Source: Ptychodera flava (lineage: Eukaryota > Hemichordata > Enteropneusta > Ptychoderidae). Taken from it: a stretch of 64,000 bases of DNA. Positions 2,966-38,364 of the stretch are shown here, in pieces (within the stretch, counting starts at the first letter, position 1; every line of letters begins with the position of its first letter). The stretch is from assembly GCF_041260155.1 (NCBI RefSeq), contig NC_091948.1:1228001-1292000 (forward strand). Reading direction: 5' to 3'. The notes beneath the pieces were generated by a model that searched no databases, had not been told where the DNA came from, and worked only from the letters and a program-made list of their open reading frames with translations. Made by a program: the position numbers and the translations under genes.

Positions 2966-3112
2966 GAAAGGCCTTTGGATGCCATTGAGGTTATTGTGAT
3001 TCGTCAGTAGCTCGCATGATCATTTCAAGGGCTAATTTGATATTTATAATAGGATAAATTGTTTATATTTCACCAGGAGAGAAAAAAAGTTTTGACATGT
3101 ATTGTTTGAAAC
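1..3112 (+). repeat. Segmental duplication, left copy (partner 29868-32992)
   Basis: Nt 1 aligns to 29868. Near-identity runs through the coding region and about 145 bases past the stop codon before the two 3' flanks diverge. Identity is uneven: long stretches are almost unchanged (about 246-367 and 1700-2070), while others (about 400-450 and 660-860) carry many substitutions. One 6-base difference, adding two codons in the right copy, lies near 2345. The duplication starts beyond the left edge. Confidence 0.9.
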
Positions 3113-3809
3113 CAACACAATTGGAACTATTTTGTGATTATAAGATCTTGAGCATTTGTTATAATCTATTTAAAAATCATCAATCTAACAGTGTTTTTGT
3201 GTGAAGTTGGGGGCAAATTTCATAAATTATTGATAATTGCGCAATCATCAAATACATCTCGAACAAATTTTACAGTTTTGTCTAGCTTTTCGCACGCTCA
3301 GGGAGAACCCATTAAATGTAACTGATTTGTCAATTTTGTTTAGGTTTAAGTCAAAATACAAATTCCCTTTCCAAGGTTGATTTGTAGGCATTTACTATTC
3401 TCACCGAACGATGCATGATAAAATTTTAAATTTTCGATGGGAAAATGGCCTTCTACCTCTACCCAAATCAGTTCTGCTGTAGTGTATGGTTTTTTGGTGA
3501 TCTCTCTTTCAAATGATTTGGTAGATGTTAAGAAAATGTCTTGTACATTTATTTATTTAATATACAAGGAAGTGAGACCTGGTAAATTTGATTAAACTAC
3601 CCTTTTCTTGTGAGTGTGCTAATTAATGCTGGAAAATTTTACAAAATAACTGAACTATTTCAGCCCTTCTATTAAAAATGAAATATGTTTGGTAGATGCA
3701 AATAAATGTAATCGATATCATCTGTCTGTTGAAACCTTAAAATATTAACGGCAGGAACCAACAGATTTTTCCTGAAATTTTTAGGGACTGTATAGAGATG
3801 TCTTTGCAG
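2966..3809. other. 3' flank of the left GT31 gene
   Basis: The first 145 bases match the 3' flank of the right GT31 gene, so they are probably 3' untranslated sequence. The rest is AT-rich with no open frame, hairpin or element end that I can recognise. Confidence 0.5.
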
Positions 3810-4467: not shown

Positions 4468-5715
4468 AAGGTAAATAGTTTTTTAGATGACAATCATATT
4501 ATACATAATAATCAAGCTGGATTTCGCAAAAACCATCGCACAATAGATCACATATTTACCCTGAAGACAATAATACATAAATATATTAACAATAAGCAGA
4601 ACATTTATGTTTGTTTTGTTGACTTTGCTAAGGCTTTCGACTCGGTATGGAGAGTTGGTCTTTTCCATAAACTTCTCAAAAATAATATTAATGGCAAATT
4701 ATACAGACTTATAAAACACATGTACACCAACACAAAAATACACATCAAAACAAATAATTTTATCTCGCCCAGCCTGAAAGTTGAAAAAGGAGTAAAACAG
4801 GGCTGTGTTCTAAGTCCTAGTCTGTTCAATTTATATGTCAATGACTTGAAAACAAATCTAGACAAAGTAAATACTCAACCACCAGTGTTGAATAATACTC
4901 CAATTAACTCATTATTTTACGCTGATGACCTAGTCTTAATTTCTACTTCAAAAGAAGGTTTGCAGAGGGAGTTAAATACACTACACACATTTTGCTCTAA
5001 TTGGAAACTTGATGTTAATTTACAGAAAACTCAAGCAATTAATTTTAGTAAATCTCCTTTGATAGATAAACACTTATTTAACTATGGTAGTACATGCATC
5101 AAATCTGTGAAGAGCTATACATACTTAGGACTGACAATTAAATCAAACGGTAGTTTTAGTGAGACAATTACAAATTTGGCTGATAAAGCAGCGAAATCTT
5201 TGTATAGTTTAAAAAGGGTTTTATTGCACAACAAAAAGATAAAATTTTCCCTACATCTATTCAATGTTTCATTAAACCTGTTTTACTGTATGGCTCAGAG
5301 ATTTGGGGACAAGATTTCATGGATTACAAGAAGTGGGATAAATCAGCAATTGAAAAAAACTCACCTCAAATTTTGTAAGAACATTTTACAGTGTAATAGA
5401 CAAGCTTGTAATGCCGCTGTGAGACTAGGACAATTCCCACTTCTACTTGAGATCAAACTTAATATTGTTAAATACTGGCTTCATATCGTACAACTGCCAC
5501 ATTGTAATCTTGCTAAAGAAGCTTTTCTGGAGCAAATGGTAAACAACACTAACAATAGATCCTGGTTTAACTGTTTAAGTGCTTTAATTAAAGACAATGG
5601 AATGGACTTTCTCCTTGATAAAGCTCCATCACTTAAACACCACAAAGTTATAACTGGTTTAATGAAAACAAATTTAACAAACAATATGAAGTCTTTTGAA
5701 AAAGTTGATCTCTGA
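4468..5715 (+). pseudogene. LINE reverse transcriptase, truncated at the 5' end
   Basis: Open from nt 4468 with no start codon until 4720, as expected for an interior fragment. The RT blocks appear in order: QAGFRKNHRTIDHIF near 4510, motif A VDFAKAFDSVW near 4620, motif B GVKQGCVLSPSLFNLYVNDL near 4790, and the catalytic YADD in LFYADDLVLIS near 4915. A thumb/connection region follows to the stop at 5713-5715. The sequence continues in another frame at 5696 (KLISDENNKLRMYAKIK), so a single small frameshift in an A-run near 5700 separates the RT from its C-terminal domain. The catalytic residues are intact, so the copy is probably young although truncated. Confidence 0.85.
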
Positions 5716-13902: not shown

Positions 13903-14049
13903 TGGTAAAGGGTCTGAGTTCGATTCTGACCCGGGTAGCGACCCGGGTAGCTAACGCTTACGTCATTGGACACTACTTAGCATGCGCAGAAATGTAACCC
14001 GGGAGATACGAAACGAACGACAACAGAGTAGCAACCTATGTAAACAATA

Positions 14050-17000
14050 ATGGCGACCGAGTTTAATGAATTTCTAGTTTTTCGAAATTTTTTTGAGGAT
14101 TGTGACCAAGCTTTAGACTCCGCAGCAGTTATTCAACTCCGGACAAATACTGCTATCATTGTCGCTCTGAGTTGTTTGTTTTTGCGCCGAAAATGTGTCC
14201 CACGGATTACAAACTTTGCAGAAAATGTCGTACCACAGTATTCTTTGCAAGATTTCTGCATACACTTCCGTATCTGCAAAGATATCTTCACCATTGTACT
14301 GGGTAGAATCTCCCGTGTTATTTCAATTGAGCATCCTGGTGGCCGACCTCAAGTGAGCCCGGAAAAACAGCTGTTGGTGTGGATTTGGTACATGGTAAAT
14401 CAAGAATCAATCAGGGAAGTTGGGCACATTTTCAATCTCTCAAAATCGACAGTTCATTCTTTGGTAAAGCGTGTAACCAAAGCTGTCATTGCTACGATGA
14501 AAGATGTAAGTACACATTCTATTTTCTGTATTGTTTTTATGGTATATTTGGGAACAGAACTATATTTAGCATTAATTAAAGATAGGCAAAATCCGTAATG
14601 TATGAGATCGGCCCTCAAGTCATGCTTTCATTGTATCTCGCTTGGATTATTGCAATAGTTTACTTTTCGGCCTCCCTTCATTTGGAATACGCAAACTGCA
14701 AACAATTCAAAATTCGGCAGCTCGACTTGCCACCAGGAAGAAGAAAAGTGATCATAGCCCATTCTTTGTGACCTCCATTGGCTGCCTGTCCAACACATCT
14801 ATTTCAAAATTCTTTGTATTACTTTCAAAGTTATCTGTAGCCTAGCTGTGGGTCCACAGCTGTGGTGTTTTCGGACGGGATTTCCACCTTTTAGGGGCTG
14901 GTTTTGACTTTTCCGATTCTTTAACCCGGTATTGGAAAAGTAAAAACTAGTCCCTAAAAGGTGGAAATCCCGTCCGAAAACACCACAGCTGTGGACCCAC
15001 AGCTATCTGTAGCCATGTACCATCTTATCTTGATGAGCTTTTGATTAGACGTTGTACCAGTCACACCTTACGTTCACATTCTAATGGGGAAATTAACTTA
15101 CGTCAACCCATTGGTCGCACATCTTACTACGGAGATAGAGAGCTTTTTCAATTTGTGTGCCTCATCTGTGGAATTCTTTACCGCACACCGTCACACCTTT
15201 GTGCACCTCAGTAATTTGATAATTTTAAAGTAAGGTTAAAAACTTACACTTTTAAGTCATTTTACATATGAGTTTAATATTTTGATCTACTTTTAACCAT
15301 TCTGTGATTTTATAAGTTGTTACTTTTATTGATAATTTTTTTTATTGCTATTATTTTTCACTTTTAATGTAAATTGCATTGAGATATTTAAATATGTAAT
15401 GTACTATATAAGAAATATAGATTATGATTATTAATATATAGAGTATTGATGTTTCTTATTAGATAGAGCAAAGTTTCTTTGGTGGAGAAAGAGTGAACTC
15501 ATCAAGTTTTACACTTGTAGAGTCGTTTTGTCTGGGATTGTGGAGTTGTTTTTTGCCACAACTTTCATTACAAAACATGACACAAACACAGTGAAAATAA
15601 AAGTGACATATGAAAATTTTCATAGTGTCAAACAATCCATTAAATATTTAAATTTGTTCATGATTGATTATGGAGGATGTGATTTTTTGGGAATTGTATA
15701 TTTTTGTGATCTAGGTCTAATAATGTAATTTTTCTACACATTTTTGTCTTTTAACCTTTTAAAAAGTTCTCACAATTTTCAAGATTAAAATATGTTAGCA
15801 AATAATTAAATGAAGAAAGTTTAAAAAATTCACTTAGATGAAAAAATTTATCCATATTTTCTCCTTTTTTCCAGATTATCAAGTGGCCAGCACAGGAGCG
15901 ACAAAGGGAGATTTCCCAGGGCTTCCAGCTTGATTATGGTTTGCCAGGTGTCGTCGGAATTATTGATGGAACTCACATTCGACTGTCAGGTTGTATTGGT
16001 GGAGCTCAGGATTATATCAATAGGAAAGGTTATGCATCAATGCAACTTCAGGTGAGGATTTCTTATTTATAATGATAGTTTTGATTATAATGCATGCTGT
16101 TCCATCATGAGAGGTTTGTCCATTTATGTAATATTATATTACAGCTTTGTCAATACCAGTGAATGTTGTGACATCATACCCTTGGACTATTACTGATAAT
16201 GTATCTGATTATCTGATTATTGTGGCCCAAGATGTTTTCTACAAAGCTAGAAAATCACTAGCATTGCCAAAACTACAAAGTAATAGCAATGATACACCCC
16301 CTCAGTGTCTATAATGGACTTGAGTAAACTTTACACAACATAATGTTCTCGGCTTTGCCTCGTACATAATGTCATGTAAACTTCGCTTTCATCCATTATG
16401 GGCCAGGAGGGGTAATTGTGAAATGCTGGATGGTGAGTTATAGCAGTCAACTGTTTGGAGGAATATATTCTATTTTGAAAAGTTTCATAATCTTATTACA
16501 CGGAGACACTTTATTCTGCTGTGAATATTTGGGAATTTGCTGAGTTTAGTTGCATCTCATTTTTTTCCAGGTCATTGTAGACGATCATCTATTGATCACT
16601 AACGCATACACTGGATGGCCTGGCTGCACACATGATGCCCGTGTCCTTCGGAATTCTTCAGTGTTTACAGGAATTGAGACAGATCAAGTGACTCTGGATC
16701 CCGGAAAATATATCATTGGTGATTCAGCCTACCCTCTGAGAGAATGGCTCATCACTCCTTTCAGAGACAATGGATTTCTCAATATTCAACAACGCAGGTT
16801 TAATCGTGTACTTTCATCTTGTCGTCAAAATGTTGAAAGATCAATTGGGCATTTAAAGGGGCGTGTGAGGAGGCTCAGAGAATTGCCAATGCATAGTCCA
16901 GAGGATGTGTGTGAGACCATTATTTCTGGTTGTATTCTGCACAATCTATGCATTGTCCATCATGATGACGTGGAAAACTATATTGATTTAGATCCACAAC

Positions 17001-17092
17001 ATATCAATGATCCAAACCAATATCCAAATATTCATGTGAATGCACCTGGAGGTATTGTCAGAAGACAACAACTGATGAATCATTTACAATAA
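14050..17092 (+). CDS. Harbinger-type DDE transposase (HARBI1-like), three exons
   Basis: Exons 14050-14505, 15875-16051 and 16571-17092 join in phase 0 with consensus sites (GAT|GTAAGT, TTTTTTCCAG|ATT, CAG|GTGAGG, TTTCCAG|GTC). They give a 384-residue protein without stops, close to HARBI1-type length. Exon 1 has a helix-turn-helix region ([20 protein letters not shown], about 120-140). Exon 2 carries [13 protein letters not shown] with acidic residue D183. Exon 3 carries CTHDARV (D233), [10 protein letters not shown] (D262) and [14 protein letters not shown] (E300), typical of the DDE_Tnp_4 nuclease fold. The enzyme should cut and join element ends in the nucleus, together with the Myb-like partner encoded at the other end. 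The start has an AATAATGG context 199 bases inside the left terminus. Intron 1 holds later insertions that do not disturb the reading frame. Confidence 0.9.
14600..15245 (+). mobile_element. CR1/L2-like LINE 3' fragment inside transposase intron 1
   Basis: The frame near 14640 reads [20 protein letters not shown] then [19 protein letters not shown], the well-known post-RT region of CR1/L2 LINEs. It resumes after a nested MITE with [20 protein letters not shown] and YGDRELFQF, the usual end of that ORF. It is a heavily truncated, diverged fragment with several frame breaks. Confidence 0.8.
14843..15005. mobile_element. 163-bp near-perfect hairpin MITE with 9-bp target duplication
   Basis: The ends TAGCTGTGGGTCCACAGCTG and its exact complement continue for 54 identical bases, then pair imperfectly to the centre. 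It is flanked by TCTGTAGCC at 14834-14842 and 15006-15014, an exact 9-bp duplication (two more bases could be shared). It splits the CR1/L2-like fragment and so is younger than it. No coding capacity. Confidence 0.92.
15246..15874. other. Remainder of transposase intron 1
   Basis: AT-rich intron sequence ending in the pyrimidine tract CTCCTTTTTTCCAG of exon 2. No further element recognised. Confidence 0.6.
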
Positions 17093-18383
17093 GGGATAAT
17101 TCAAAAATCAGTGAGACTTAATCTTGAAAGTTGTTTGGCTGTTATAAGAAAAAAATTAATATTAAATTTTGCTGAATGTACTTCTAACCTGAAATATTTA
17201 ATCTTAATCCTTCTCTTAATTTATTGTTAGACATAAATTATAAATATGTTTTATATGTTACAGAAAGACTATTCAATGAAATCGTTTTGTCAAGTATTAT
17301 TACACTAATCAGTTATTTAACTACAAGCATTGTTAATTTTTTAAATATTTGAAATACTTGTAAAAAAATTCACTGCTATGATTATTTGTCAGTGATTTGC
17401 ATTAAAGGCATTGTTCATTCATTACATTATTGTTTGATGTGTTTTTATCAAATGTCTCAGAAATGACAAAAGTTATCACAGCTAATACAAGGGTTCATTT
17501 GTACTCATATACGGTACATGTACTATATGTGAAGAGATACTCAAATATTTTCATAGAAATATATTTCTTACAAAGAATTTGAAATTTCCAGATGAATTCT
17601 TCAGTGTCATACATAAGTTAAACAGCTCTGACAAAATTTCTTAATTTATCCAAAAAATTAATTTGTGTCATCCTGTGCAATGCCAAATCCAGTTTACCTT
17701 CTAGTGGTCAATAGTTTCACCTGTAAATATTTCAATTCCATGGTCTCATCAGTTTTCTACTTATTTCATTCAAAAGGACCCCAGGGCATACGCTTTCTCA
17801 ACATCACTTCTTGATCTTTTTGCCAGAGGTCCACATATCTTTCTTCCATTGATTTGACTTTGTTGTGTGTACCGATACTTTACTGTCTGTTCTGTGCTGT
17901 TTTGTGTCTGTGTTTGTAACAATTGACCATGTATATTATTAGATTATGGATGGGTACAATTTTGATTACTTTACTCATTGCAGAGTCTGAAACAAAGCTA
18001 ACATAAATGTTTACACAGTTCCCATGCCTTTACATAAGACACAGTGGTGGGTTAATTGACTACATATTACTCTAGTACAAGGATTTATACAGTGACACAA
18101 TAAAACATCAGGTTTAGCAGTAATTTTAATAAGAGAAGATAGTGTCATATTACAAATTAATCAGATATTTATTGATAAATTAAGATCATATATTTATAAA
18201 TATTTTATTGCATTAAATATTAATGTTATAGTCAGAAGCTATAAAGCTAAAAACATTAATAATGATTGGAATCCACATTTGCATAAAAACTCTTCCTGGA
18301 AAAGCAAAGACCCTTTTCCAGTATTGTCCTATCTAAGATGTTACAAATGAGTATATTAAATTACACACTTGTTCTATTCAATG
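17093..18383. other. Central non-coding region of the transposon
   Basis: AT-rich. It contains the transposase 3' UTR and possible polyadenylation signals. No other gene seen. Confidence 0.5.
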
Positions 18384-19330
18384 TCTACTACAGTACATGT
18401 GAAATCTATTCTAGGTATAATACATTACATATCAGTTCTACTGAAGTAAATTACAATTCAAATTCTATTCAAGGTATACTACAGTACATGTGAAATCTAT
18501 TCTAGGTATAATACATTACATATCAGTTCTACTGAATGGAAGTAAATTACAATTCAAATTCTATTCAAGGTATACTACAGTACATGTGAAGTCTATTCTA
18601 GGTATAATACATTACATATCAGTTCTACTGAATGGAAGTAAATTACAATTCAAATTCTATTCAAGGTATACTACAGTACATGTGAAGTCTATTCTAGGTA
18701 TAATACATTACATATCAGTTCTACTGAATGGAAGTAAATTACAATTCAAATTCTATTCAAGGTATACTACAGTACATGTGAAATATATTCTAGGTATAAT
18801 ACATTACATATCAGTTCTACTGAATGGAAGTAAATTACAATTCAAATTCTATTCAAGGTATACTACAGTACATGTGAAGTCTATTCTAGGTATAATACAT
18901 TACATATCAGTTCTACTGAATGGAAGTAAATGACAATTCAAATTCTATTCAAGGTATACTACAGTACATGTGAAATATATTCTAGGTATAATACATTACA
19001 TATCAGTTCTACTGAATGGAAGTAAATTACAATTCAAATTCTATTCAAGGTATACTACAGTACATGTGAAGTCTATTCTAGGTATAATACATTACATATC
19101 TACTGAATGGAAGTAAATTACAATTCAAATTCTATTCAAAGTCTACTACAGTACATGTGAAGTATATTCTAGGTATAATACATTACATATCAGTTCTACT
19201 GAATGGAAGTAAATTACAATTCAAATTCTATTCAAGGTATACTACAGTACATGTGAAGTCTATTCTAGGTATAATACATTACACATCAGTTGTACTGAAG
19301 TAAATAACAATTCAAATTCTATTCAAGACA
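18384..19330. repeat. 96-bp minisatellite, about ten copies
   Basis: The unit begins TACTACAGTACATGTGAAGT and ends ATTCTATTCAAGGTA. Central copies are nearly identical; edge copies have small deletions. Each unit splits into two similar halves (CTATTCTAGGTATAATACATT versus CTATTCAAGGTATACTACAG). Because 96 is divisible by three, a frame repeats a 32-residue peptide from about 18490 to 18933, but deletions break it and nothing suggests translation. Confidence 0.95.
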
Positions 19331-20169
19331 TAATACGTTACATATCAATTCTATCTAAGTCATATAAAATTACAGATCAGTTCAATTCATTGTACATTTC
19401 TCAACTAACTTATTATGAACTCTATTCAAGATATAATAACTTACAAATATTTTCTTTTTTAGGATTTAATAAACTTACCCACTGCTATGCCAGCTATAAT
19501 AATTACATAATAATTTTACACAAGGTATACTAAATCACTATCATTTTTATTAAAATTATAATATTTTACAAATCAATTCTCTCTGGCTTGCTATAAATGG
19601 AGATGTATTTTTGAACATATTACTTGTACCAAGGTTTGAAATTTAAACAAAAAAGTCAACTATTTTCAATAGAAGTTTTGAAAAAGACTAAGTGCTAAAC
19701 TTTGCATTACTGTTTCTCTATTTGATTAAATTTTGTGTGCATTTTTGAAAAGTTAAGCATATTTTAATTCCTGTCAATTAATAATTCTCCCATCTATCCA
19801 CAAAGAACATCAACTATTTCATGGAACAGTTTTTGATAAAAAATTTGAAATGATCAAAACAGTCAACTGGATGAAAAACTGTGATGAAATTTTTAAAAAA
19901 TTACACAAGATCGATGTTGGTCATTATGAAACATTTTTGGTAAAACTGTGGACAATGAATATTTGTAATTGTATGGAAATCAATGAAGGCCATCTAATGT
20001 CCAGATGAAAAAAATTATTCAAAAAATCATTGTGTTTGTTACAGACAACAAAAGACCTCTACTGAAATATTTAGGAAACCTATCAAAGCACTCAAAAAAT
20101 TAAGGGTGACTTTTATTAGCACAAACTATTTTTGAAATTCAGATCGTATTTTTCATTGTAATTCAATTT
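19331..20169. other. Spacer between the minisatellite and the Myb-like gene
   Basis: AT-rich transposon interior, probably including the 3' UTR of the minus-strand gene. No gene seen. Confidence 0.5.
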
Positions 20170-21480
20170 TCAATTCTTACTCAGAGACCGTTCGTATAAA
20201 TTCAACATTCTATCCATTCTCTTCATTTTTTCTGTGTGTTGCTTCTCCATTAGCTCAAACAGATCATCATTTTTCTTTTCCATTTGTGAAATTGCTGCAA
20301 TTATTTTGTCTTGAGGGGAAACTCTGTCAGATGTTTTGTTTCTTTTTCTAGATTTACGTGGTGTTGCATCAGTAGAAGCTGTGGTTTGTGTTGTGTCTGC
20401 TGTATTTGTCGTTGTCATGTCTGTCATTTCTGTCACTGTTGTTACTATAGAATCCTTGTTCTTGTTACTTGTGTCTGTTAGATTAAGGGAGTCAATGGTA
20501 CATGTAGGATTTGTAGACTCTTTCATCCCATACAGATTATCAAATTCTTTGAAATGTCTACAAGTTTTCCTTTCACCACCAGTTTTCTTTCTATTATCGA
20601 TTACTTCCATGTAGGACTTTTTTAGATTTTTCCATTTATCTCTCACTTGTGAAATAGTAACATAAATACCTGCTTTTTCCATTTCTGACACAATGCTTTG
20701 CCACAATTTTTCATGTCTTACACTTTGTTTAAACACATCTTCCATATCTGATCTCAGAACAACTAATAAAGTTTCTTCCCTATCTGTCCAGATATGAACT
20801 TTATCTATGTTAGTGTTGTTTTCTGTGCTTGTTTTTTTTGTAGGCTCTACTTGATCTTGTTGTGCTTGTGTTTCATTCTCTCCATCTTTGCTATGCTGAC
20901 TAGTTTGCTTTCCATTTTCTTTTTGTTTTCCGTTATGTGCTGCTATAGCCTGGTTAAGTATAGCTTGTTTGATGTTGGAGTCTATTCAAGATAATAATTA
21001 GTGTATTTAAGTCACGAATCAATTTTTATTCATTAATTAATTTATTTGTTTATTTATTTTAATCAGGCTCTAGGCACTAAGGCCAGTAGAAATGTAAGGG
21101 AAAAAAAACATAACATAGATGCACAGTTAATATAATTTGCCCAGTAAACATAATACTTACAGTGCATATGTCATCATGCTGCATAACTCTCGCACAAAAA
21201 ATACTATGGTCAGAATAGCAAGTACAGACCTCACACATGGACATAGGTTGACTTGTATCGTTACAATGTATCAGTACATAATTTCCAGTCAGCTGACTTC
21301 ATTCAACGCAAAAATAAACAAAACGACTGCTGCATGACGTTTGATGAAACTTTTGCGTTTATTTGTCGTTACTAAGTAATACTTACCAAGGTTCGGTGAT
21401 TTCAACAAATCTGCAATTTCTTTCTGGACTTGAATAACTGTTCGTGGGCGATTTTCGTTCGCCGCATCAACAATTTCAAG
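20170..21480 (-). CDS. Myb/SANT-like DNA-binding protein of the Harbinger-type transposon
   Basis: Two exons are clear. Exon 21387-21480 (acceptor TTTCAG|CTTGAA, donor CTTG|GTAAGT) encodes LEIVDAANENRPRTVIQVQK and on to SPNL. Exon 20170-20981 (acceptor GAATAG|ACTCC) continues in phase through a split Asp codon. Together they give 301 residues. The domain begins VHIWTDREETLLVVLRSDM and runs to KWKNLKKSYMEVIDN...RHFKEFDNLYG, with the spaced tryptophans and acidic helix 1 of Myb/SANT-like (trihelix) domains. A Thr-rich linker, a basic PRKSRKRNK patch (possible nuclear signal) and a charged coiled-coil tail follow. Known Harbinger Myb-like proteins bind the element ends and help import the transposase. 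The start is probably further upstream: ATGGCCACCAAACAATC|GTGAGT at 21951-21935 is a good first exon, but its phase does not fit directly, so a small exon may be missing. Confidence 0.85.
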
Positions 21481-22900: not shown

Positions 22901-24120
22901 AGTTATCGGATATTCTAAATCCCTTTACCAGCTATCGGCTGTTGTAGGGCCTTTATCTAAGATACTATTGTGGTAATTTCATAGAATAACGAAGTAAAGG
23001 TCCCTGAAGTTGTTGGAAGGGGTGTGAGGGCGGCGCCAAGTCTAGATTAACATCTATGCACTCGAGTAAGACTTCTCCCACATCGACTGCCATAAATGCA
23101 TTCCTTCTATTTCAGAGGAAGGCCAGATAGCATGCTTCACGTTAGCGTGATAATTTGAAGAGCCTCCATTATTTTAGATAGAGAATTTTTTAAGGTATTA
23201 AATAAGGACATGTTTGAGGTTTTAGCAACCGTCTGACAAGCACTGCTTGGTTAGGTCATCGTAGCACAGTCTCCAAATTGCTGTTTTGATGGAAAGTCCG
23301 AGCCAAATTAACACTCTAAGCTAGCGCAGAGTACTTTGAAAATGACGCTTTCAAATCCTGTTTATGCTGAAATAATACAAAACAAAAATTCGAAGTGATT
23401 GTCTTTTGTTAAAACTGTCCAACAAATTACGAAACAAACATGAAAACTCAACCAATAACTTTCTTGTCGATCGTCACGACGTTATAATGTTGAAGACGAG
23501 CGTGAGTATGTCACCTTTTTTCATCGGAAACAATTGCAAAAAACTTGGTTTTTCTAGGTTGTTTCTGGATGAGTTTTTCGGTCTAAGATGTTTGAAATAG
23601 TCATTGACAAATTCAACATTTTCCGTATCTGATAGCGTTTAGTAAATGTCAAACAGGGCAAAGTATAGAAAATTATGATTGAGTCAAGCAAATGACTTTT
23701 TTACTTCATAAAAGAGAGACAGTAAAACTCGTCAGGACATTTTTTCCAAATTAGTTATGGTCACTTTTGAATTCCGGTATTTGTAGGACGACTTACATAA
23801 TAAGTGCCAACACTAGGTCTATCTTTATTTCCTTAGACATCACACAGTGAGCAAAAAGTTTGCCCGTCTGTCTTAAACAGTTTTATCAAGAATATCTCTC
23901 TGTGTGTCTCTGTCTCTGTCTGCCTGTCTGTCTGTCAGTCTCGTTGTAGCAAACATTTTGGGGTATTTTATGTCCTTGGAAGTTTTAAATGACAAATTCA
24001 TGTTGATGAAATGAACAAAAATATCAGTCACTGTAACATCGATGTCTTTGCCCACACAGATCTGTGCCACAGAGTTGGATAAGAACTAGCACAGGGCCTG
24101 TGACAGGGGCAGAATGTCCT
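22901..24120. other. Unassigned spacer
   Basis: No supported gene. A CT-rich simple stretch (TCTCTGTCTGCC-type) lies near 23896-23940. The short open frame at 23406 has no recognisable features. Confidence 0.4.
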
Positions 24121-26267
24121 GTATAGTAAACACATATTGCCTGGTCATGAGGGCTATAGCGCCCGTCTATTGCCCCGAGGGGTCGTGTGTTACCAGAAAC
24201 ACATCGCTATTCCCCTAGGCCGTAGGCCGAGGGGTATAGCGATGTGTTTCTGGTAACACACGGCCACGAGGGGTAATAGACGAGCGCTATAGCCCGAATA
24301 AAGACCAGGCTATAGGTGTTTTATAACACACCACTTACTCATGTTGTATTGTTATATAGTTTTTAATGTGTTTTGATATTTTGTACCTCAACAATCCATT
24401 GTGACAAGTTTACTGGGCGATGTTTCCACAGCGCTTTCAGTTGTACGTGGTACCACTTTCTTTCAAAAATATTCTAAGCATACCTAGCGACATCCCTAGT
24501 CGCACTTTAATCTTTTCCGTCGATGAGCTGTTCAAGTTCCTACATACGCTGTTGGAATGTTGGAAAATGTTGGAAAATCTGTTTTAAAAAATGTGTCGTC
24601 ACCTATCCCCGGCGCACATCACATTCTACTCACCCGCCATTGTTGCAAAGCTGCAGACGACACTACGGTCACGTGACCGGGCACTTTCCCAAATTTGGTC
24701 AAAACTATTTCCCTAGGGAAATAGCTTTTCAAAAAATACCCTCTGACGTCACTTTTTTCGATCCGATGGGGACTAGACGTATCTATTTTCTCGTCACGTG
24801 ACGTATTCTGGCGAATCGCGACACGGAATGAGCATGTGGCGTGTTATAATTAAGGTTCCAAGACAAGAAATGTGACCTTTTTAATCTACCAATTCTCTAA
24901 CGGTTAATAAACTCAGAACCCCCGTAAAGTATACATTTTCTGAAAGCCTACATATATGGGAACATTTTGGTAACCACAGTGTCACCATTGTTTACATAGC
25001 TATCACGTGACAAGATAATTTGCATAACCTTTCAAAAGTCGGTTTTCCCTATGTTTTGTCTCAATACTTCAAAATATCTGACTCAAACTTGCTGGAATGC
25101 AAGCTGTCACAATGCTCTTTCAAAGTGTCCTCAGATTTTCTATATCTTGCTTAGTTTTTTTGGAGCACAATTTAAAGAAATCAACTATGTAAAATTCACT
25201 GCTCTGGAAGTTTTTCTGGCATAAAAACTGTTTAAGAAGGTTTAAAAAAATTCTGAGACACGCTTTTGAAGACCTGTAGGATAGCTTACACTCACATGAA
25301 TTTCAGCCACATATCTCAAAGCATTGAAACAAAACATAGGGAAAACCGATTTTTGAAAGGTTATGCAAATTACCTGTCACATGATAGTTATGTAAACAAT
25401 AGTGACACTATGGTAACCAAAATGTTCCTCTATATCTAGGCTTTCCGAAAATATACAATTTACGGGGGTTCTCAGCTTATTAAACACTAGAGAATTGTTA
25501 GTTTAAAATGGTCAATTTCTTGTCTTGGAACCTTAATATTATAACACGCCACATGCTTATTCCGTGTCGCGATTCGCCAGAATACGTCACGTGACGAGAA
25601 AATAGATACGTCTAGTCCCAACCAAATCGACAAAAGTGACGTCAGAGGGTATTTTTTGAAAGGCTATTTCCCTAGGGAAATAGCTCTGACCAAATTTGGA
25701 AAAGTGCCCGGTCACGTGACCGTAGTGTCGTCTGCAGCTTTGCAGCAATGGCTGGCGGGTGACTAGAACGTGATGTGCGTCCGGGATAGGTGACGACACA
25801 TTCTCTAAAACAGATTTTCCAACATTTAACAAACTTCCAACAGCGTAGGAACTTGAATAGCTCATCGACGGAAAAGATTAAGGTGCAACTAAGGATGTCA
25901 ATAGGTATGCTTAGAATAATTTTTGAAAGAAAGTGGTACCACGTACAACTGAAAGCGCTGTGGAAACATCGCCCAGTAAACTTGTCACAATGGATTGTTG
26001 CGGTGCAAAATATCAAAACACATTAAAAACTATATAACAATACAACATGAGCATGTGGTGTGTTATAAAACACCTATAGCCTGGTCTTTATTCGGGCTAT
26101 AGCGCTCGTCTATTACCCCTCATGGCCGTGTGTTACCAGAAACACATCGCTATACCCCTCGGCCTACGGCCTAGGGGAATAGCGATGTGTTTCTGGTAAC
26201 ACACGGCCCCTCGGGGTAATAGACGGTCGCTATAGCCCTCATGACCAGGCAATAGGTGTTTAATACA
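24121..26267. repeat. 2.1-kb palindrome (giant foldback element)
   Basis: Left arm about 24121-25080, right arm about 25310-26267, inverted relative to each other along their whole length. Matching features include the TTGCCTGGTCATGAGGGCTA ends, the CGTGTGTTACCAGAAACACA segments and the ATAACCTTTCAAAA segments near the centre. Each end carries its own smaller hairpin of about 160 bp with a CCTAGGCCGTAGGCCGAGG-type centre, giving hairpins within a hairpin. No protein is encoded. It looks like a foldback-type DNA element or a large MITE; target duplication not resolved. It ends only 176 bases before the GT31 start codon. Confidence 0.9.
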
Positions 26268-26325
26268 CTGAGCATTTTGATTACTATGGAGAGTCAGCAA
26301 TCAATCTTCCATAACCCTTTTTCAG

Positions 26326-26453
26326 GTCAACATCCGGACTGAGCCGTTCCGAAGAGGAATAACGTATAGTAATATACCTACAACTGCTAAAACAGAGACA
26401 ACTACTCTATGAATTCTACTGACAAGGCGAGCACTCGACGATATGGCGATTAA
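26326..26453 (+). promoter_or_regulatory. 5' leader of the right GT31 gene with an overlapping upstream ORF
   Basis: ATAACCCTTTTTCAG at 26311-26325 looks like a splice acceptor, so the leader exon may begin at 26326 with an intron upstream that could include the palindrome. An ATG at 26409 opens a 14-codon frame (MNSTDKASTRRYGD) that ends at 26453, overlapping the main ATG at 26443 in another frame. Such overlapping uORFs usually lower translation of the main frame. Promoter and transcription start are not identified. Confidence 0.45.
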
Positions 26454-29400
26454 CATATTCAGGGCACAATTGCTGAAATTCGTCGTGGTTCTTCTCGTGT
26501 ATTCTCTCGTCAACTTCGTGATCGTGTTCAATATGGTAAACAAAAATGGCGGAGAGAAAAACGGATTGACTAGGGAGTCATTTATACATCAACGAGCTGT
26601 ATTGACAACAATTGGAAGCCAAGGTAGTACTGTGAAATCTGGAGACGAAGGTAAACAACTAACACCTAAGGATATGACAGAGATTCTTCTGGAAAATCCA
26701 AAATTTTTCATCATAAAACAGAATTGGGCTTGCAGCAGTATTACATTTAACGAACTGCACGTTCTCATAATTGTCGTATCTTTGCCTCAAAGTGGCGAAA
26801 AAAGAGCTGCCATTAGGCTATCCTGGGCAAAAGGAATAGAAAAACGTGGAATTCGGGTTTTGTTTCTCATCGGCAAAAGCGAAAATTCTGACTCACAGAA
26901 ACGTATAGAAGAAGAAAACGCCAAACATCATGACATTATTCAAGTTGATTTAAGAGAAGAGACATCTATAGCTAGTTCAACACAGAAACTAATTGTGTTG
27001 ATGCACTGGACGCGTCACAACTGTCGAAATGCAAAATATGTCCTAAAAGTCGACGAACAAACACTAGTCGTGCCCGCAAACGTGCTTGAATTTCTTGAGA
27101 AAGCCCCACGGACTGGGTTTGCTGGAGGGTGGCCATTTATAAACATGAAGCCTGTCCGAAACATTAACAGTCCATGGTTCATATCGGAAGCAATGTGGCC
27201 CCATTCAAAGTACCCTCCATACTTAGGAGGATCGACATTCTTGCTATCCATCGATGTATTGCTACGAGCTTCACTTTTTTGCAGAAAACTTGTATCTTTT
27301 CCTTTCGAAAATGTCTACCTCGGGAGCATTCTTGAGAAATTACGACTAAATCTTACTCAAGTGAACAATTTCGATATCCAAGGAAGCTATCGGAAAATAT
27401 GCCAAGTAAGATCGTCACTACTGTCGACGAAATTCGAAACAAAACAAATGATTAAGTATTGGGATGCACTGCAAACAGATCTTCAGACCGTGTGCGATAA
27501 TAAAGACCCTTACCTAGATAAACTTCGATTTCAACAGCAAAATGATGGATTGAATGGGAGTAGGATCATCAACGATTTCTCTTATCAGTTTAGCGTCAAT
27601 CCCAGGAATTTATGTTTTCCAGACTTTCCAGATAAGCAAGACTGGAAAGAAGTTTTCCTGTTGATAATAACGCCATCTCGAGCTGTAAACTCAAAACAGA
27701 GGGATATGATTCGTAACACTCGCGGATCACGGAAATTCACGATCGGGAAGAAAATCGTCCAGCTATTTTTAATTGGGAAAACATTTGATACACAGCTTGA
27801 TGCTGATGTATTGCAAGAAAGCCGAACACATGAAGATGTCATCGTGGTAGACATAAGGGACAGTTATGAAAATATGACACTTAAGACAGTAATGATGCTT
27901 AAATGGACATCGCTATATTGTACCAATGCGAAATACATTTTAAAAGCCGATGATGATGTTTTTGTTAATTTGCATGATCTCGTCGTAACCCTGATAGATC
28001 AGCCAATATCTCGTTTTGTTCTGGCTTATGTCCACAAAAAGACCTGGCCACTTCGAGACAGAAAACATAAGTGGTATGTCAGCGAGGACGAATGGCCACT
28101 GAATGAACCTTACCCTCCCTATCCAAATGGACCAGCCTACGTCATGTCGTATGACGTTGCCACCAAAATATACTCGTCATCATATACTACAGAACTGTTT
28201 CGTTTTGAAGATGTCTATATTGGTATTAATTTGCGACATATAGGTATAGTGCCAACTCACAGCGACAGATTTGATAATTTTGGTAAACTGAGAACGATTT
28301 GTGAACTAAAAGGCTCGCTGTCATCTCATTATGTCCACGAAGATATGATGTACAAGTTGTGGCGGCAAACGGAAGAATGGGGTAAATTTGTACACTGCAA
28401 AACTAATGACATTGCGTCATCCTACCAAAATATCGACAAAGTTATTGTTGATAATGGGAGAGTAATCATCCCCGGGAATGTCTCAAATTCAACAAGATTG
28501 AACACTTTTATCATTAACCACGCACAGAAGTGTTCGCCCGGGAAAAGTCAACCGTTCCTAGTGGTTTGTGTCTTCAGCCGACCTGGGAACGTGCAATTAC
28601 GGACGGCAATACGCGATACCTGGGGGAAACCTGATCAGGAAATTAGCGGTGTCAGAGTAGTAACTGTATTTTTCACAGGTGTATATGAGGACAACGTGGA
28701 GATGCAAGAAGCTATTCTCGAGGAGGATGCAAAATTTGGTGACATTATCCAGAACAATTTCATTGATTCATATGAAAATCAGGTAATAAAGACGGTTACT
28801 ATATTACATTGGACTTCTACCTATTGCGCAGGTGCAGCATATCTAATTAAAGTAGATGACGATGTCCTCCTGAATATTCGTAGTTTAATAGAGTTTCTCG
28901 AATATTCGCCAAGAAAGGCTTTATACTTCGGCGATCTAAAGTTAAACGCGAAACCCGAGAGAGGTGAAACTTCCAAATGGTACACTCCTCCAGAAGCTTG
29001 GGAAAGAGGCGAATATCCGCCATATGCAAGCAAATCGTACGTACTTTCTCTCGATGTCGCCGATGCTGCTTCTCAGATTGCTCTGGCTACACATGTTTTC
29101 AAATGGGAAGACGTTTACGTTGGGATTATGGCGGAGAGATTAGGAATTCAGCCGCTGCCACATATCCACTTTGACATTACTGGTGCTTATCGTTCACAAT
29201 GCACATTGCAGTCAGCTATTATGTCAAGTCAGTTCTCGGCTGAAATGCTCAGAAAGTATTGGAAAATCTTGAGAAATAGCACTACAGCTGTGGGTAAATG
29301 CAATGGTTTGTTTGCTGAAAAAGTCAAGCCATACGTTCGAGATCATGCATGGACTTCACAACAACTTTGCTCGAGTAACTCTGCTGATATATATCCCATT

Positions 29401-32400
29401 TTCTTGGTGGTACTAGTCAACACAAGTCCGGATCAGCTGGAAAACAGAAACGTCGCTCGTCTGACGTGGGCCAGGATAAATAGAGTCTTAGGGGAGCGTG
29501 TTGAAGTGAAATTTGTAATTGGAACGTCGAGCAATGAAAGAGTGCAGAATGTCATCGAAAAAGAAGCTAACCACTACGGTGATGTAATCATTTCTAAGCT
29601 ACTTGAAGCTGATGCAAATTCAACCTTGAAACGATTGAATGTTTTTCAATGGGTGCGCGACTTTTGTTCTTCTGCAAAATTCGTCATGGTAGTTCCAGCC
29701 GACAGTTTCGTCAATATCAGAAATGTTATCAGCCACATACGCCATGCTCCACTATCCAATCATATAGCTTGCTTCGTACAGAGAAACGTTAAGCCAATCA
29801 GGCAAAAGGGAAGTCCATGGTACATTTCAGTTGACGACTGGCCCTTTGACTACTTTCCTCCACACTGCAACGAGAAAACAGCATCGATAATGTCTATGGA
29901 TATCTTGCAAGAAGTTTTGTATCACTCTCAGAACAAAAAAACTATCAAGTTTCCTGAAATACAAATCGGTACGATTCTTCACAAATATCTGAAAAACACA
30001 CAACTCTCGCACAATACTGCGTTTTACGTAAAAGGCATGGCAAGATATTTGCAAGATGGTGGAAACAATGATATATGTGGCTTAGACAGCATTATGGCGA
30101 CTAATGGTTTTACCGGACAAATCATGCAGTACGTCATTGAACAGGTGATCAACGACAATCTAGAGAAGTGTCAAGATCAGCGACGAAAGGAACTTGCCGA
30201 CAAATATTTACAGAAATTCAACAACAGAGAAAAATTTAACGATATCATCAATGAACTACAGGCAAAATTAAACAACCAGACCATTATCAATATCCACGAG
30301 TACTCTACTGTCATTGATCACCCTGAAAGATGTCGACGTCATTGGAATGGCGTCTTCTTATTCATAATGGTGAGGTCAAACCCTGAGGAGAGAGAGTACA
30401 GAAATGCCATCAGGTCGACCTGGTCAAAAGAAACTGCTGTTGAAGGAGTCCGCGTTGATTACATATTTCTCCTAGGACGACCTGAGGATGCTCAACTCCA
30501 GCGAAAAATCTGGTTGGAAGATGAAGAAAACGAAGATATCGTGCAAGAGGATTTCCTTGACGTATTTCGGAACCAGACATTAAAAATTGTGATGGCGCTC
30601 AAATGGGCATCACAGAATTGCGCAGATGTGAAATATATCTTTATGACCAAATCCAACACTTTCATTCATGTTTCAAATATGATGCTTTACCTCAAGTCTT
30701 CGTTCACTCTAGAAAACGACCTCGTTGTAGGACATATCTTGAAGAATACAAGACCAGTGAGAAATCCAGACAGTTCATATTTCGTCCCAGTTGAAATATA
30801 CCCAGAAGAAAGGTATCCGCCTTACCCCGAAGGAAAGGGTTACCTGATGTCCGGGGATGTTATGCACAAGGCCTATGTGATGTCACAGTATACAGCCTCA
30901 TTCCTATGGGAAGATGTCTACTTTGGCATGCTGCTGCAGAAACTGTCAATAATCCCTCGCTTCCATTCTGACTTCATTAGTGATTCGTTGAACAAGGTTC
31001 CCGATGTGTGCTATATGAGAAATGCCTTTATATGGAATGTGGTGGCGCCAGAGGCAATGGGCGCGTCATATTACAAACTTCAAAATAGCCAAAATATATC
31101 TTGCTTTGAAAAAGATCGTATTAAACCGGACTTGTACGAATTCAAAGTATCGAGTGACCACCTGTGTAAAGAACCATCAGACAATATCTATATTCTGTTG
31201 GCTGTGATGACATCGCCTACTAACTTTGGCCGTCGACGCGCGATAAGAGAGACATGGGGCATGCATTATGAAAACATCACAGATTTTTACGTCAAAACCG
31301 TGTTTATGGTTGGAATCCCACGTGATGAAGAAACACAGTTTATGCTTAAGGAAGAGAACGACTACTACCACGACATCGTTCAGTCAACCTTCATTGACAG
31401 TTACCAAAACTTGACTCTAAAAACTGTAATGATGTTAAAATGGGTAGCAAATTATTGCCCAAATTCAAAGTTTGTAATAAAAGTCGACGATGACGTCTTT
31501 GTGAATATAGAAAATGTTATTTCGTTACTCAATGGCGCACAATCAACCGAATATTCTTTGGGTTTCATATTGTATAATAGTTGGCCTATTCGGGATCCTA
31601 AACACAAAAACTACACACCGCGCCGTCTGTGGCCTGATAGAAGCTTCCCGCCGTACTATTCTGGACCATGTTACTTTCTCTCCACTGATGTTGTCAAAAC
31701 CTTATACAAGGCTTCGTTCAGTGCAAGGTGGTTTACAAATGAGGACGTCTTCATAGGCGCTCTCATGCAAAGTATTGGACTATCTCTTCAGGGAGATCCT
31801 CGCTTTGATATCAGTGGCGACGCTCGTGACGTCTGTCGCCTGCGTAGTGTCCTAGCGACTCATAAAGTTATGGCTCGTGACATGTACAAATTCTGGTATT
31901 GGTTAAACTCACAGGAGAATGTTGAATGCAATGATGCTAATTTACCGGATAGGCACTTCTACCTGTATTACCAAAATCAAACCAGTTGGCAAAATCAAGA
32001 GTACGCATTCCCGATAGCAAATCGAAAATTTTGTCATAAATCGCTTACATCACTCATCGACAACGCAAGGAAGTCGGTCTTAATCGTTGTAGGCAGCCTG
32101 CCAGAAAACGTTGAAGCACGAAACGCAATAAGGGACACGTGGGGGCGCTTACATGAAAATTACCATGCTGTAATGATAACGCTCTTCTTTATCGGAACCA
32201 CCACAAATCATACAGATACAGTACAAGCTCTCGTCGAAAAGGAATCCGAATTCCGTGGCGATATAGTTCAGACAAATGTGTCCGATTTCCTGTACAGCGC
32301 TACGTTTAAAACAATAGCCATATTCACGTGGTTGGCCAAATTCTGTGACGATGTGAATTACGTCATCAAGACCGATGATGGTACATTTCTGAATTCACCA

Positions 32401-32838
32401 ATGATTCTGCACTACTTCGAAACATCAAAACCACCGACAACCGATCTTATTGCGGGAAGCGTTATCCACAGTTCAAGACCGATACGCGATGTCCAAAGCC
32501 AGTATTACACACCAGAGGAAGTCTGGCCAAATGAAAAATTCCCCGTCTATGTGGAAACACCGACGTATCTTCTGTCCATGGATGTAGTGAAGAGAGTGGA
32601 CTCCGTTGCAAGGACGACACAGCCTGTTTTCTGGGAAGACGTCTTCCTTGGTGTGTTACTTCAGAAACTCAGCATAAAGCCAAGTGAGCTGAGGGGCTTT
32701 GATTTTAAGGGAGAGAAGCGCATAAACTGCGAATACGGTCATTCTCTTGCAACGGCATTCTTCACACCCAATCAAATGCGTTCATTTTGGAGGGAATTAA
32801 GATACGTTGATATTGTCTGCGGCGACCAGAATAACTAG
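26443..32838 (+). CDS. Seven-domain GT31 (beta-1,3-galactosyltransferase family) polyprotein
   Basis: One 2131-residue frame without introns. A signal anchor (LLKFVVVLLVYSLVNFVIVF, about residues 10-29) predicts a type II Golgi membrane protein. Seven GT31-like units then start near residues 103, 401, 704, 985, 1303, 1583 and 1877, spaced about 300, each the size of a usual single-domain family member. Units carry R..IR.TW, FL.G, DSY.N.TLKT, WP...YPPY and EDV.IG motifs. DDD at the metal site is intact in units 2 (503-505), 3 (805-807) and 6 (1682-1684). It is DEQ in 1 (204-206), PAD in 4 (1085-1087), KSN in 5 (1403-1405) and DDG in 7 (1978-1980). Unit 4 also loses EDV (PEI) and unit 2 has IRNTR for IRxTW. 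GT31 enzymes use UDP-Gal or UDP-GlcNAc; the substrate here is unknown. Cysteines recur at equivalent places (for example NYC, DVCRLRS). The ATG at 26443 is the first in frame and directly precedes the anchor. Confidence 0.92.
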   Translation: MAINIFRAQLLKFVVVLLVYSLVNFVIVFNMVNKNGGEKNGLTRESFIHQRAVLTTIGSQGSTVKSGDEGKQLTPKDMTEILLENPKFFIIKQNWACSSITFNELHVLIIVVSLPQSGEKRAAIRLSWAKGIEKRGIRVLFLIGKSENSDSQKRIEEENAKHHDIIQVDLREETSIASSTQKLIVLMHWTRHNCRNAKYVLKVDEQTLVVPANVLEFLEKAPRTGFAGGWPFINMKPVRNINSPWFISEAMWPHSKYPPYLGGSTFLLSIDVLLRASLFCRKLVSFPFENVYLGSILEKLRLNLTQVNNFDIQGSYRKICQVRSSLLSTKFETKQMIKYWDALQTDLQTVCDNKDPYLDKLRFQQQNDGLNGSRIINDFSYQFSVNPRNLCFPDFPDKQDWKEVFLLIITPSRAVNSKQRDMIRNTRGSRKFTIGKKIVQLFLIGKTFDTQLDADVLQESRTHEDVIVVDIRDSYENMTLKTVMMLKWTSLYCTNAKYILKADDDVFVNLHDLVVTLIDQPISRFVLAYVHKKTWPLRDRKHKWYVSEDEWPLNEPYPPYPNGPAYVMSYDVATKIYSSSYTTELFRFEDVYIGINLRHIGIVPTHSDRFDNFGKLRTICELKGSLSSHYVHEDMMYKLWRQTEEWGKFVHCKTNDIASSYQNIDKVIVDNGRVIIPGNVSNSTRLNTFIINHAQKCSPGKSQPFLVVCVFSRPGNVQLRTAIRDTWGKPDQEISGVRVVTVFFTGVYEDNVEMQEAILEEDAKFGDIIQNNFIDSYENQVIKTVTILHWTSTYCAGAAYLIKVDDDVLLNIRSLIEFLEYSPRKALYFGDLKLNAKPERGETSKWYTPPEAWERGEYPPYASKSYVLSLDVADAASQIALATHVFKWEDVYVGIMAERLGIQPLPHIHFDITGAYRSQCTLQSAIMSSQFSAEMLRKYWKILRNSTTAVGKCNGLFAEKVKPYVRDHAWTSQQLCSSNSADIYPIFLVVLVNTSPDQLENRNVARLTWARINRVLGERVEVKFVIGTSSNERVQNVIEKEANHYGDVIISKLLEADANSTLKRLNVFQWVRDFCSSAKFVMVVPADSFVNIRNVISHIRHAPLSNHIACFVQRNVKPIRQKGSPWYISVDDWPFDYFPPHCNEKTASIMSMDILQEVLYHSQNKKTIKFPEIQIGTILHKYLKNTQLSHNTAFYVKGMARYLQDGGNNDICGLDSIMATNGFTGQIMQYVIEQVINDNLEKCQDQRRKELADKYLQKFNNREKFNDIINELQAKLNNQTIINIHEYSTVIDHPERCRRHWNGVFLFIMVRSNPEEREYRNAIRSTWSKETAVEGVRVDYIFLLGRPEDAQLQRKIWLEDEENEDIVQEDFLDVFRNQTLKIVMALKWASQNCADVKYIFMTKSNTFIHVSNMMLYLKSSFTLENDLVVGHILKNTRPVRNPDSSYFVPVEIYPEERYPPYPEGKGYLMSGDVMHKAYVMSQYTASFLWEDVYFGMLLQKLSIIPRFHSDFISDSLNKVPDVCYMRNAFIWNVVAPEAMGASYYKLQNSQNISCFEKDRIKPDLYEFKVSSDHLCKEPSDNIYILLAVMTSPTNFGRRRAIRETWGMHYENITDFYVKTVFMVGIPRDEETQFMLKEENDYYHDIVQSTFIDSYQNLTLKTVMMLKWVANYCPNSKFVIKVDDDVFVNIENVISLLNGAQSTEYSLGFILYNSWPIRDPKHKNYTPRRLWPDRSFPPYYSGPCYFLSTDVVKTLYKASFSARWFTNEDVFIGALMQSIGLSLQGDPRFDISGDARDVCRLRSVLATHKVMARDMYKFWYWLNSQENVECNDANLPDRHFYLYYQNQTSWQNQEYAFPIANRKFCHKSLTSLIDNARKSVLIVVGSLPENVEARNAIRDTWGRLHENYHAVMITLFFIGTTTNHTDTVQALVEKESEFRGDIVQTNVSDFLYSATFKTIAIFTWLAKFCDDVNYVIKTDDGTFLNSPMILHYFETSKPPTTDLIAGSVIHSSRPIRDVQSQYYTPEEVWPNEKFPVYVETPTYLLSMDVVKRVDSVARTTQPVFWEDVFLGVLLQKLSIKPSELRGFDFKGEKRINCEYGHSLATAFFTPNQMRSFWRELRYVDIVCGDQNN

Positions 32839-32992
32839 GAAAGGCCTTTGGATTCCTTTGAGGTTATTGTGATTCGTCAGTAGCTCGCATGATCACTTCA
32901 AGGGCTATTTTGATATTTATAATAGGATAAATTGTCTATATTTCATCAGTTGTAAGAGAGAAGCAAAGCCTTCACGTGTATTGTTTGAAATC
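29868..32992 (+). repeat. Segmental duplication, right copy (partner 1-3112)
   Basis: Covers the end of domain 4, domains 5-7, the stop and about 150 bases of 3' flank of the right GT31 gene. Homology ends as the flanks become dissimilar after about 32992. Confidence 0.9.
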
Positions 32993-33267
32993 ATATATTC
33001 CATAAATATCGTGTGCACAATGACCGTCAGGACGTACGCAACACGACTGAGTCTACTGAGACACTTTGACACAATGAGTTAGTTATACATGTAGTATTTT
33101 AGGAAACAATTTTACAAGAATCTGATGATTGTTGTATCAACAGGTGAAGGGAAGTGATGTTAACTGCTTTACAAAAGTGATTTGTGATTTTGTGACACTG
33201 TCAAATTTGTTTTCACTTTAACTTGTCTTTTACAGGCGAAATTTAACAATATAAACAGATAAGTCTT
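32839..33267. other. 3' flank of the right GT31 gene
   Basis: The first 150 bases match the left copy's flank and are probably 3' UTR. The remainder is unassigned. Confidence 0.5.
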
Positions 33268-37188: not shown

Positions 37189-38364
37189 ATGGATGTACTT
37201 CCTAATCATTGCTGCATGATTTTGTTGTATTGGCACAAGCATATAAGCGCAGAAATGAAGTGGGGTTTGAGTGAACCAGCTGTGGTGTCTGTAGGTACCC
37301 GTCAAGGAGGATTACAATCCAGTTTCTTTTTGTTTTGTCAAGATTTAGTGGATGAATTGTCGTCATGTGATGGTGGTATCAGGGTTAATAATTTGTCTTT
37401 TAATGTTTTTGTTATACCGACAACTTTATGTTGGCCAGCCTTTCTGTTACTGGTCTTCGAAATATGATCAAGAATGCAAGCAGATATATAACAAATCATG
37501 GCTTGTGTTTCAATCCTAGAAAGACAAACTGTGTTATTTTCGGTCAATGTACACTTACACCACATCCATATTGGTCACTGAGTGTGAACTATTTAGGTGT
37601 TACTCTTTCATCGTTTAATCCAAATGAACACATTACAAATAGAATAAATACATGTAGGAAAGCTTTCTATGGACTTCAAGGTGCTGCCTCTAGTAATGCC
37701 CATATTGACAGCAATGTACTCGCTTATGTTTGGATGCTGCCGTTAGAAAGGCAGTTGTAATGTATGGTACTAACTGCGTGCATATATCTAAATCATCAAT
37801 TAGTGAGGCCGAAAAAATCCCGTCAAAATTACTTAAAGATTGGTTTGGCATTCACAAATGTTGTAGAAGTACTTCTTTCCTGAACCCCATCAATGTTATG
37901 AAAATTGATGTCACATCAAATCAGTTCCATTGATTTGATGACATCCATCTTCAGTAATAATTATCGGGCTCGTGGTTTTTACCTGTATCTTTAGAATAAT
38001 TATCCATTTATGTGGGGTCACACTGATTTAGTATCAGATGTTAATAGAATTTGTGTCAAAAAATGGTATCTCACTTTTGCGGTATATTTTTGACATGCAA
38101 TTAGTCACATTCGGTCCGTAATGATATATGAAGACATGTTTAAGGCCAGATGGGCTGACTGACAGCATTCGCCAGCTCTTGCTGGCAAAAGATCTACACA
38201 GCGGTTATCGTCTAATATGTTATTAGGCCTAAGACCATTTTAAACATGGATTTCCTTTTGTCTTGTACAAAGTGTTTTCATTTAATGTATGTTTTGAAAT
38301 TGTCTGTGTATCAGTTTATATTTCTCTTCTTTTGAAGGCTTTATAATAAAATAATAACAATACT

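Follow-up and report, generated by a model that had tools for sequence, protein, structure and literature searches.

The 64,000-nucleotide window analyzed here, from contig NC_091948.1 of the hemichordate Ptychodera flava, contains a gene, termed copy B, that encodes seven glycosyltransferase family 31 (GT31) units in one uninterrupted frame, together with the 3' part of a close tandem paralogue, termed copy A. We favor, with modest confidence, the reading that the copy B protein is a single-pass type II, probably Golgi GT31 β-1,3-glycosyltransferase with two or three live catalytic sites and four retained, folded pseudo-units. Behind one membrane anchor, the protein would carry seven GT-A domains in tandem, belonging to the B3GALT/B3GNT branch of the family. 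Units 2 and 6, and perhaps unit 3, would work as metal-dependent inverting β-1,3-glycosyltransferases using a uridine diphosphate (UDP) donor. Units 1, 4, 5 and 7 would have lost normal metal and donor binding and be kept as folded non-catalytic modules, which may stabilize the active units or hold a glycan or protein acceptor close to them.

Copy B runs from an ATG at 26443 to a TAG ending at 32838 on the forward strand (2131 residues; 2131 codons plus stop), and its frame is already open from 26413, upstream of the ATG. By comparison, stop-free runs reached at most 196 codons in 30 versions of the window generated with a dinucleotide Markov model. Pfam scan of the whole protein revealed seven Galactosyl_T (PF01762) stretches with a total of 917.4 bits (E = 6.2e-279). 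When scanned singly, all seven units passed the curated cut-off of 23 bits, with 107.8, 165.9, 146.2, 103.5, 125.6, 169 and 137 bits for units 1 to 7, respectively, and by these matches the protein is assigned to GT31. The N-terminus has a hydrophobic segment at residues 10-28 (26470-26526, forward strand) with a 19-residue mean hydropathy of 2.58, the predicted type II signal anchor. The second-best segment reaches 1.65 and overlaps the start of unit 1, and the hydropathy scan of copy B showed nothing of similar strength inside the chain. The combination of a type II anchor and B3GALT/B3GNT-type GT31 units behind it points to the Golgi lumen. Altogether, the open reading frame (ORF), hydropathy and Pfam agree with the original prediction, a first annotation of this DNA that had described a single intronless frame with one signal anchor and seven GT31 domains.

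The linkers between the bounding cysteines of successive units comprise 39, 44, 22, 53, 20 and 34 residues. Such segments of 20-53 residues that part the units would suit a polyprotein, or piecemeal transcription, with each unit acting separately. However, none of the internal hydrophobic segments matches the anchor, the frame runs unbroken through every linker, six in copy B and three in the visible part of copy A, and copy B has a single R-x-K/R-R motif, which begins at residue 1296 and takes in the first cysteine of unit 5. Because no furin-type site lies in any linker proper of copy B, a polyprotein is unlikely, and we consider separate action of the units highly improbable.

Comparison of the units using MAFFT and HMMER revealed pairwise identities of 21-33%. 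Each unit is about as distant from the others as from the aligned fragments of human B3GALT5 (26-33%) and B3GNT2 (18-32%), the best-matching solved chains. The best match to solved B3GALT5 is unit 6 (E = 6.3e-42) and that to solved B3GNT2 is unit 5 (E = 5.5e-36); even the most diverged unit, unit 4, matches B3GALT5 at E = 6.6e-31. A GT-A fold is predicted for the units from these matches. The unrooted tree is star-like, with supports of 40-69% on the inter-unit branches and the two human proteins branching among the units, and we claim from it neither a duplication order nor a single clade of units. Six-frame hidden Markov model search of the window found GT31 pieces only in the two regions of copies A and B, the next match having an E-value of 1.9.

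Catalytic sites were mapped by aligning the units with the B3GALT5 and B3GNT2 fragments, using B3GALT5 numbering. In B3GALT5, the donor sugar is contacted by Lys154, Asp156 and Glu242 and the uracil by Asp126 and Lys134; the metal ligands are Asp158 and His285, Asp243 serves as the base, and disulfides link residues 52-146 and 276-307 (PMC11969544). The key residues of B3GNT2 are Asp247, His376 and the base Asp333 (PMC7948508). From unit 1 to unit 7, position 156 reads D, D, D, P, K, D, D; position 158 reads Q, D, D, D, N, D, G; position 243 reads N, D, D, E, D, D, D; and position 285 reads T, H, S, N, N, H, A. The motifs quoted in the original prediction (DEQ, DDD, DDD, PAD, KSN, DDD and DDG) are all correct.

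Only two of the seven units, unit 2 (residues 391-652, 27613-28398) and unit 6 (residues 1575-1829, 31165-31929), have the complete set of metal, donor and base residues, with DDD, ED and the metal-binding His (C-His) all present, and both are predicted to be active; like all units described here, they lie on the forward strand and are bounded by cysteines. Unit 3 (residues 697-953, 28531-29301) retains DDD and ED and is short of only the C-His, which is replaced by Ser. Units 2, 3 and 6 thus share the DDD motif as originally described, but this does not amount to three intact sites. Unit 3 may nevertheless work, because water compensates for the lost metal-binding His in some GT-A families (PMC7185993), although its activity is uncertain. 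In chondroitin synthases, the mutants that a complementation assay told apart from wild type include the equivalent His-to-Ala changes (one-sided p = 0.003 and 0.044; PMC12748766).

Each of the other four units lacks the His plus at least one other key residue. Unit 1 (residues 97-351, 26731-27495) has DEQ, ENV in place of EDV with the base Asp changed to Asn, and Thr for the His; unit 4 (residues 976-1243, 29368-30171) has PAD, PE in place of ED, and Asn for the His. Unit 5 (residues 1297-1554, 30331-31104) has KSN (TSN in copy A) and Asn for the His (Lys in copy A), with ED present. These three are predicted to be inactive, and unit 7 (residues 1864-2126, 32032-32820), with DDG, Ala for the His and ED present, is predicted to be unable to bind metal normally. 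Overall, only two or three of the seven units can probably still work.

Alternatively, the altered units might still be enzymes, either metal-free or by another mechanism as in GT14 after loss of the DxD motif, which would make the chain a synthase with multiple active sites. This would be consistent with units 5 and 7, which retain the ED motif with the base and the uracil-contacting Asp and Lys, and with the activity of GT14 without DxD via basic side chains (PMC7185993). By contrast, the base Asp has given way to Asn (unit 1) or Glu (unit 4), the C-His is absent from five of the seven units, and the replacement residues of unit 5 are unstable between the copies (Lys to Thr, Met to Thr and Asn to Lys). 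We therefore consider this explanation distinctly unlikely.

To compare losses inside and outside the active site, we used the 33 columns, seven of them catalytic, that are invariant in units 2 and 6, B3GALT5 and B3GNT2. Pooled, units 1, 4, 5 and 7 keep 13 of 28 catalytic positions, compared to 80 of the 104 remaining invariant ones (p = 0.004). The reference includes units 2 and 6 as complete units, a choice that favors the contrast between catalytic and non-catalytic positions. The difference persists when unit 3 is added to the reference set (13/24 versus 72/88, p = 0.013) or when B3GNT2 is left out (16/36 versus 113/152, p = 0.001). Loss is therefore concentrated at the active site yet not confined there, as 24 of the 104 conserved non-catalytic positions are lost as well; the earlier claim of decay confined to the active site stands as an enrichment only.

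Four fold cysteines per unit match the two disulfides of B3GALT5, and all 28 are present in the seven units of copy B; the first cysteine of each unit falls outside the B3GALT5 fragment, so that its equivalence to Cys52 is by position alone. In copy A, 13 of the 14 visible fold cysteines are present, and unit 5 has one new cysteine.

Copy A, which lies beyond the account of the original prediction, occupies positions 2-2965 on the forward strand, in the same orientation as copy B. It is cut by the window edge, such that only its last 987 residues and stop codon are visible, comprising the remainder of unit 4 and units 5-7, as identified by comparing the protein with the window. When scanned whole against PF01762, this part gave 429.2 bits in three stretches. 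Positions 1-3114 could be aligned with 29868-32993 of copy B at 93.6% nucleotide identity, and the 987 residues share 91% amino-acid identity. The sole coding indel is in frame, comprises two residues and lies in unit 7. Nucleotide homology ends about 150 nucleotides past the stop codon, and the downstream flanks (compared to 23000 and to 45000) share only one 120-nucleotide match of 75% and simple repeats.

As all evidence comes from a single assembly window, the copies might be alleles placed wrongly, or the array might have arisen by collapse or expansion of a repeat. However, the 21-33% identity among units is too low for repeat mis-assembly, and the two copies are unlikely to be alleles because their downstream flanks share next to nothing. 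We find an assembly artefact barely credible. Synonymous divergence between the copies, estimated by the NG86 method, drops towards the 3' end, from 0.30 in unit 5 to 0.06 in unit 7 (Fisher p = 5.5e-7), which suggests recent gene conversion of the 3' part between the copies.

Three further elements lie beside or between the two genes. A palindromic foldback element of about 2.2 kb (24110-26279), with outer arms of 361 nucleotides that are 96% complementary and several inner arm pairs sharing the same center, ends about 160 nucleotides upstream of the copy B start codon and could have replaced or supplied promoter sequence. A pyrimidine-rich stretch at 26315-26325, about 117 nucleotides before the ATG, ends in CAG; noted by eye, it might be the 3' splice site of a 5' untranslated region intron. 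A reverse-transcriptase ORF (PF00078, E = 2.5e-33) lies at 4468-5715, between copies A and B.

The presence of copy A beside copy B makes selection measurable, over 987 aligned codons covering the unit 4 remainder, units 5-7 and linkers. We estimated the ratio of nonsynonymous to synonymous substitution rates (dN/dS, omega) with a pairwise maximum-likelihood codon model and compared each likelihood-ratio statistic against omega = 1, for which 3.84 is the usual 5% bound; the values are uncorrected for several tests. The whole stretch gave a kappa of 3.8 and an omega of 0.42 (statistic 28.7), and unit 5 alone gave 0.29 (25.1). Omega is 0.43 for the unit 4 remainder (4.06), 0.415 for unit 6 (4.95) and 0.48 for the unit 4 remainder and unit 7 pooled (6.01), compared to 1.37 for the linkers (0.30), which is not distinguishable from 1. 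Per unit, the NG86 method gave dN/dS values of 0.20-0.39, lower than the maximum-likelihood values with transition bias, and the latter were preferred because transitions outnumber transversions 121 to 53 between the copies.

A neutral simulation placed the observed number of changes at random in 5000 runs. For the whole stretch, 115.6 amino-acid changes and 6.4 stops were expected, compared to 87 and 0 observed, and only 0.24% of the runs were free of stops. For unit 5, 49.3 amino-acid changes were expected, and the 31 observed were never reached. Unit 5, whose site is clearly altered, is thus under purifying selection, as is the visible chain taken together. Within unit 5, three of nine catalytic positions (154, 156 and 285) differ between the copies, compared to 32 of 264 positions overall (p = 0.08), the pattern expected where the fold matters and the chemistry does not.

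Several observations weigh against the reading of active units accompanied by retained pseudo-units. The visible part of copy A offers no counterpart for units 1-3 or for most of unit 4; omega of unit 7 (0.53, statistic 2.21) is inseparable from 1; and the simulation gave P values of 0.10, 0.075 and 0.22 for units 4, 6 and 7 singly. The enrichment of changes at the active site reaches significance when the units are pooled, but not in each of them: with the first reference set, p is 0.02 for unit 5, 0.07 for unit 4, 0.19 for unit 1 and 1 for unit 7, in which 5/7 catalytic and 19/26 other positions are kept without difference, and no single unit falls below 0.05 once unit 3 is added to the set. 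Moreover, the third cysteine of unit 4 is Arg in copy A (Cys1212 to Arg), a possible sign of decay. The inactivity of the altered units is itself a prediction only, because GT-A enzymes can stay active without the C-His or DxD (PMC7185993).

Some of these points would suit a birth-and-death array within one gene, in which units 2 and 6 work and the altered units are passengers, spared because a stop or frameshift would kill a downstream active unit, with a weak constraint to fold harmlessly. Neutrality cannot be separated from the unit 7 value, a fold cysteine of unit 4 is gone in copy A, and both the missing non-catalytic positions of the altered units and the variable catalytic positions of unit 5 would be in line with passengers. 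On the other hand, the altered unit 5 has a lower omega than the intact unit 6 (a difference without significance test), the linkers are inseparable from neutrality, and copy B retains every fold cysteine. Taken together, we regard the passenger array as possible but doubtful. The original claim that the altered units are retained pseudo-enzymes accordingly holds for unit 5 and has weaker support in unit 7 and the visible stretch of unit 4, singly or pooled; dN/dS is not near 1 across the altered units compared between the copies, but unit 7 alone cannot exclude that value.

Returning to the retained pseudo-units, one might further ask what the whole chain makes. Tentatively, and as a rather doubtful extension, the protein could be a GT31 megasynthase in a single chain, in which four pseudo-units space two or three active sites, bind a repeated glycan or a multi-site acceptor part by part, and so set product length or site choice. 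For a built-in assembly line for a repeated glycan, as had been suggested, we found no evidence, as there are two complete sites, three at most, and no sign of different or alternating specificities.

The architecture of the copy B protein resembles several known systems. B3GLCT likewise joins GT31-type domains in one chain, in its case two. The N-terminal one carries EEE as an altered DxD, with no activity demonstrated for it, and expression of B3GLCT relies on both domains (PMC8233153). It differs from copy B in having two units, a signal peptide and the endoplasmic reticulum-retention sequence REEL (PMC8233153), compared to seven units, a type II anchor and the C-terminus CGDQNN without REEL, and the best solved matches of copy B are B3GALT5 and B3GNT2. 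The chondroitin synthase proteins CHSY1/3 with CHPF/CHPF2 are type II Golgi proteins, as predicted for copy B, and have more than one GT domain, two per chain; CHPF and CHPF2 miss key Asp and His residues, with CHPF lacking DxD, yet are required for the CHSY-CHPF complex (PMC12748766). They combine GT31 and GT7 with a middle domain in two chains (PMC12748766), whereas copy B has only GT31 in one chain. In a Pfam scan of copy B up to E = 1, GT7 was absent; besides Galactosyl_T, the scan reported just two families, namely Fringe at 40.9 bits, whose best stretch (778-840) falls inside unit 3, and an unrelated one that did not reach its cut-off. Copy B is excluded as B3GLCT or CHSY/CHPF, as it lacks the defining architecture of either.

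Cosmc (C1GALT1C1) is a GT31 relative without DxD that is retained as a chaperone, but it is a separate single-domain protein acting on T-synthase (PMC5493369, PMC7185993). Human B3GALT5 and B3GNT2 share the matching cysteines with the units and the key residues with units 2 and 6, but have one domain per chain, and B3GNT2 was crystallized as a dimer (PMC11969544, PMC7948508). LARGE and COLGALT resemble copy B in their tandem layout of GT-A domains, but have two of them, and the N-terminal domain of LARGE is GT8 (PMC7185993). Overall, the copy B protein is best read as the two-domain GT31 plan of B3GLCT on a larger scale. For the scaffold, chaperone or acceptor-binding role put forward in the original prediction, B3GLCT, CHPF and Cosmc are precedents, though none of them reveals the part played by the altered units of copy B.

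Among the matches listed in a literature search on tandem, multidomain or expanded GT31 proteins, no title or abstract opening named a chain with more than two GT31 domains. Protein databases contain uncharacterized invertebrate gene models with several Galactosyl_T domains, so that the seven-unit type of architecture itself may already be deposited. What is novel is the number of units, together with the coexistence of complete and altered sites within a single frame. Searches for relatives covered viral, bacterial and archaeal collections, and their negatives say little about animals. They gave 57 pattern matches in viral contigs with none confirmed, a weak negative as the confirming sequence was the most diverged unit 4; 47 pattern matches in genome contigs with none confirmed when aligned with unit 6 first; and no relatives in phage records searched with unit 6.

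So far, non-catalytic GT31 units have been known one at a time, in Cosmc, CHPF and the N-terminal domain of B3GLCT. The function of such a unit within a chain was left open by the B3GLCT authors, whose discussion considers it as a possible chaperone, substrate-recognition domain or second enzyme (PMC8233153). Copy B places two complete, one doubtful and four altered units of the same family side by side in one polypeptide, with a close paralogue for comparison. It thereby provides a natural series for asking which parts of GT31 persist after catalysis ends, and whether live units need dead ones.

Scans of the whole window yielded neither a tRNA gene nor an Rfam family that reached its gathering score. 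A second reverse-transcriptase ORF at 37404-37760 (PF00078, E = 3.4e-5) is below the curated cut-off. On the reverse strand are a DDE_Tnp_4 transposase piece (16550-17092), a separate ORF with a sub-cut-off match to a transposase helix-turn-helix (14044-14598) and a Myb/SANT-like ORF (20170-20985), presumably a set as in Harbinger-type elements. Gene type and transposon content point to an animal-like host. Tandem arrays at 18320-19382 and 58062-58719 have 96-nucleotide and 146-nucleotide units; the length of the 96-nucleotide unit is divisible by three, leaving an open frame of 162 codons that is probably no gene.

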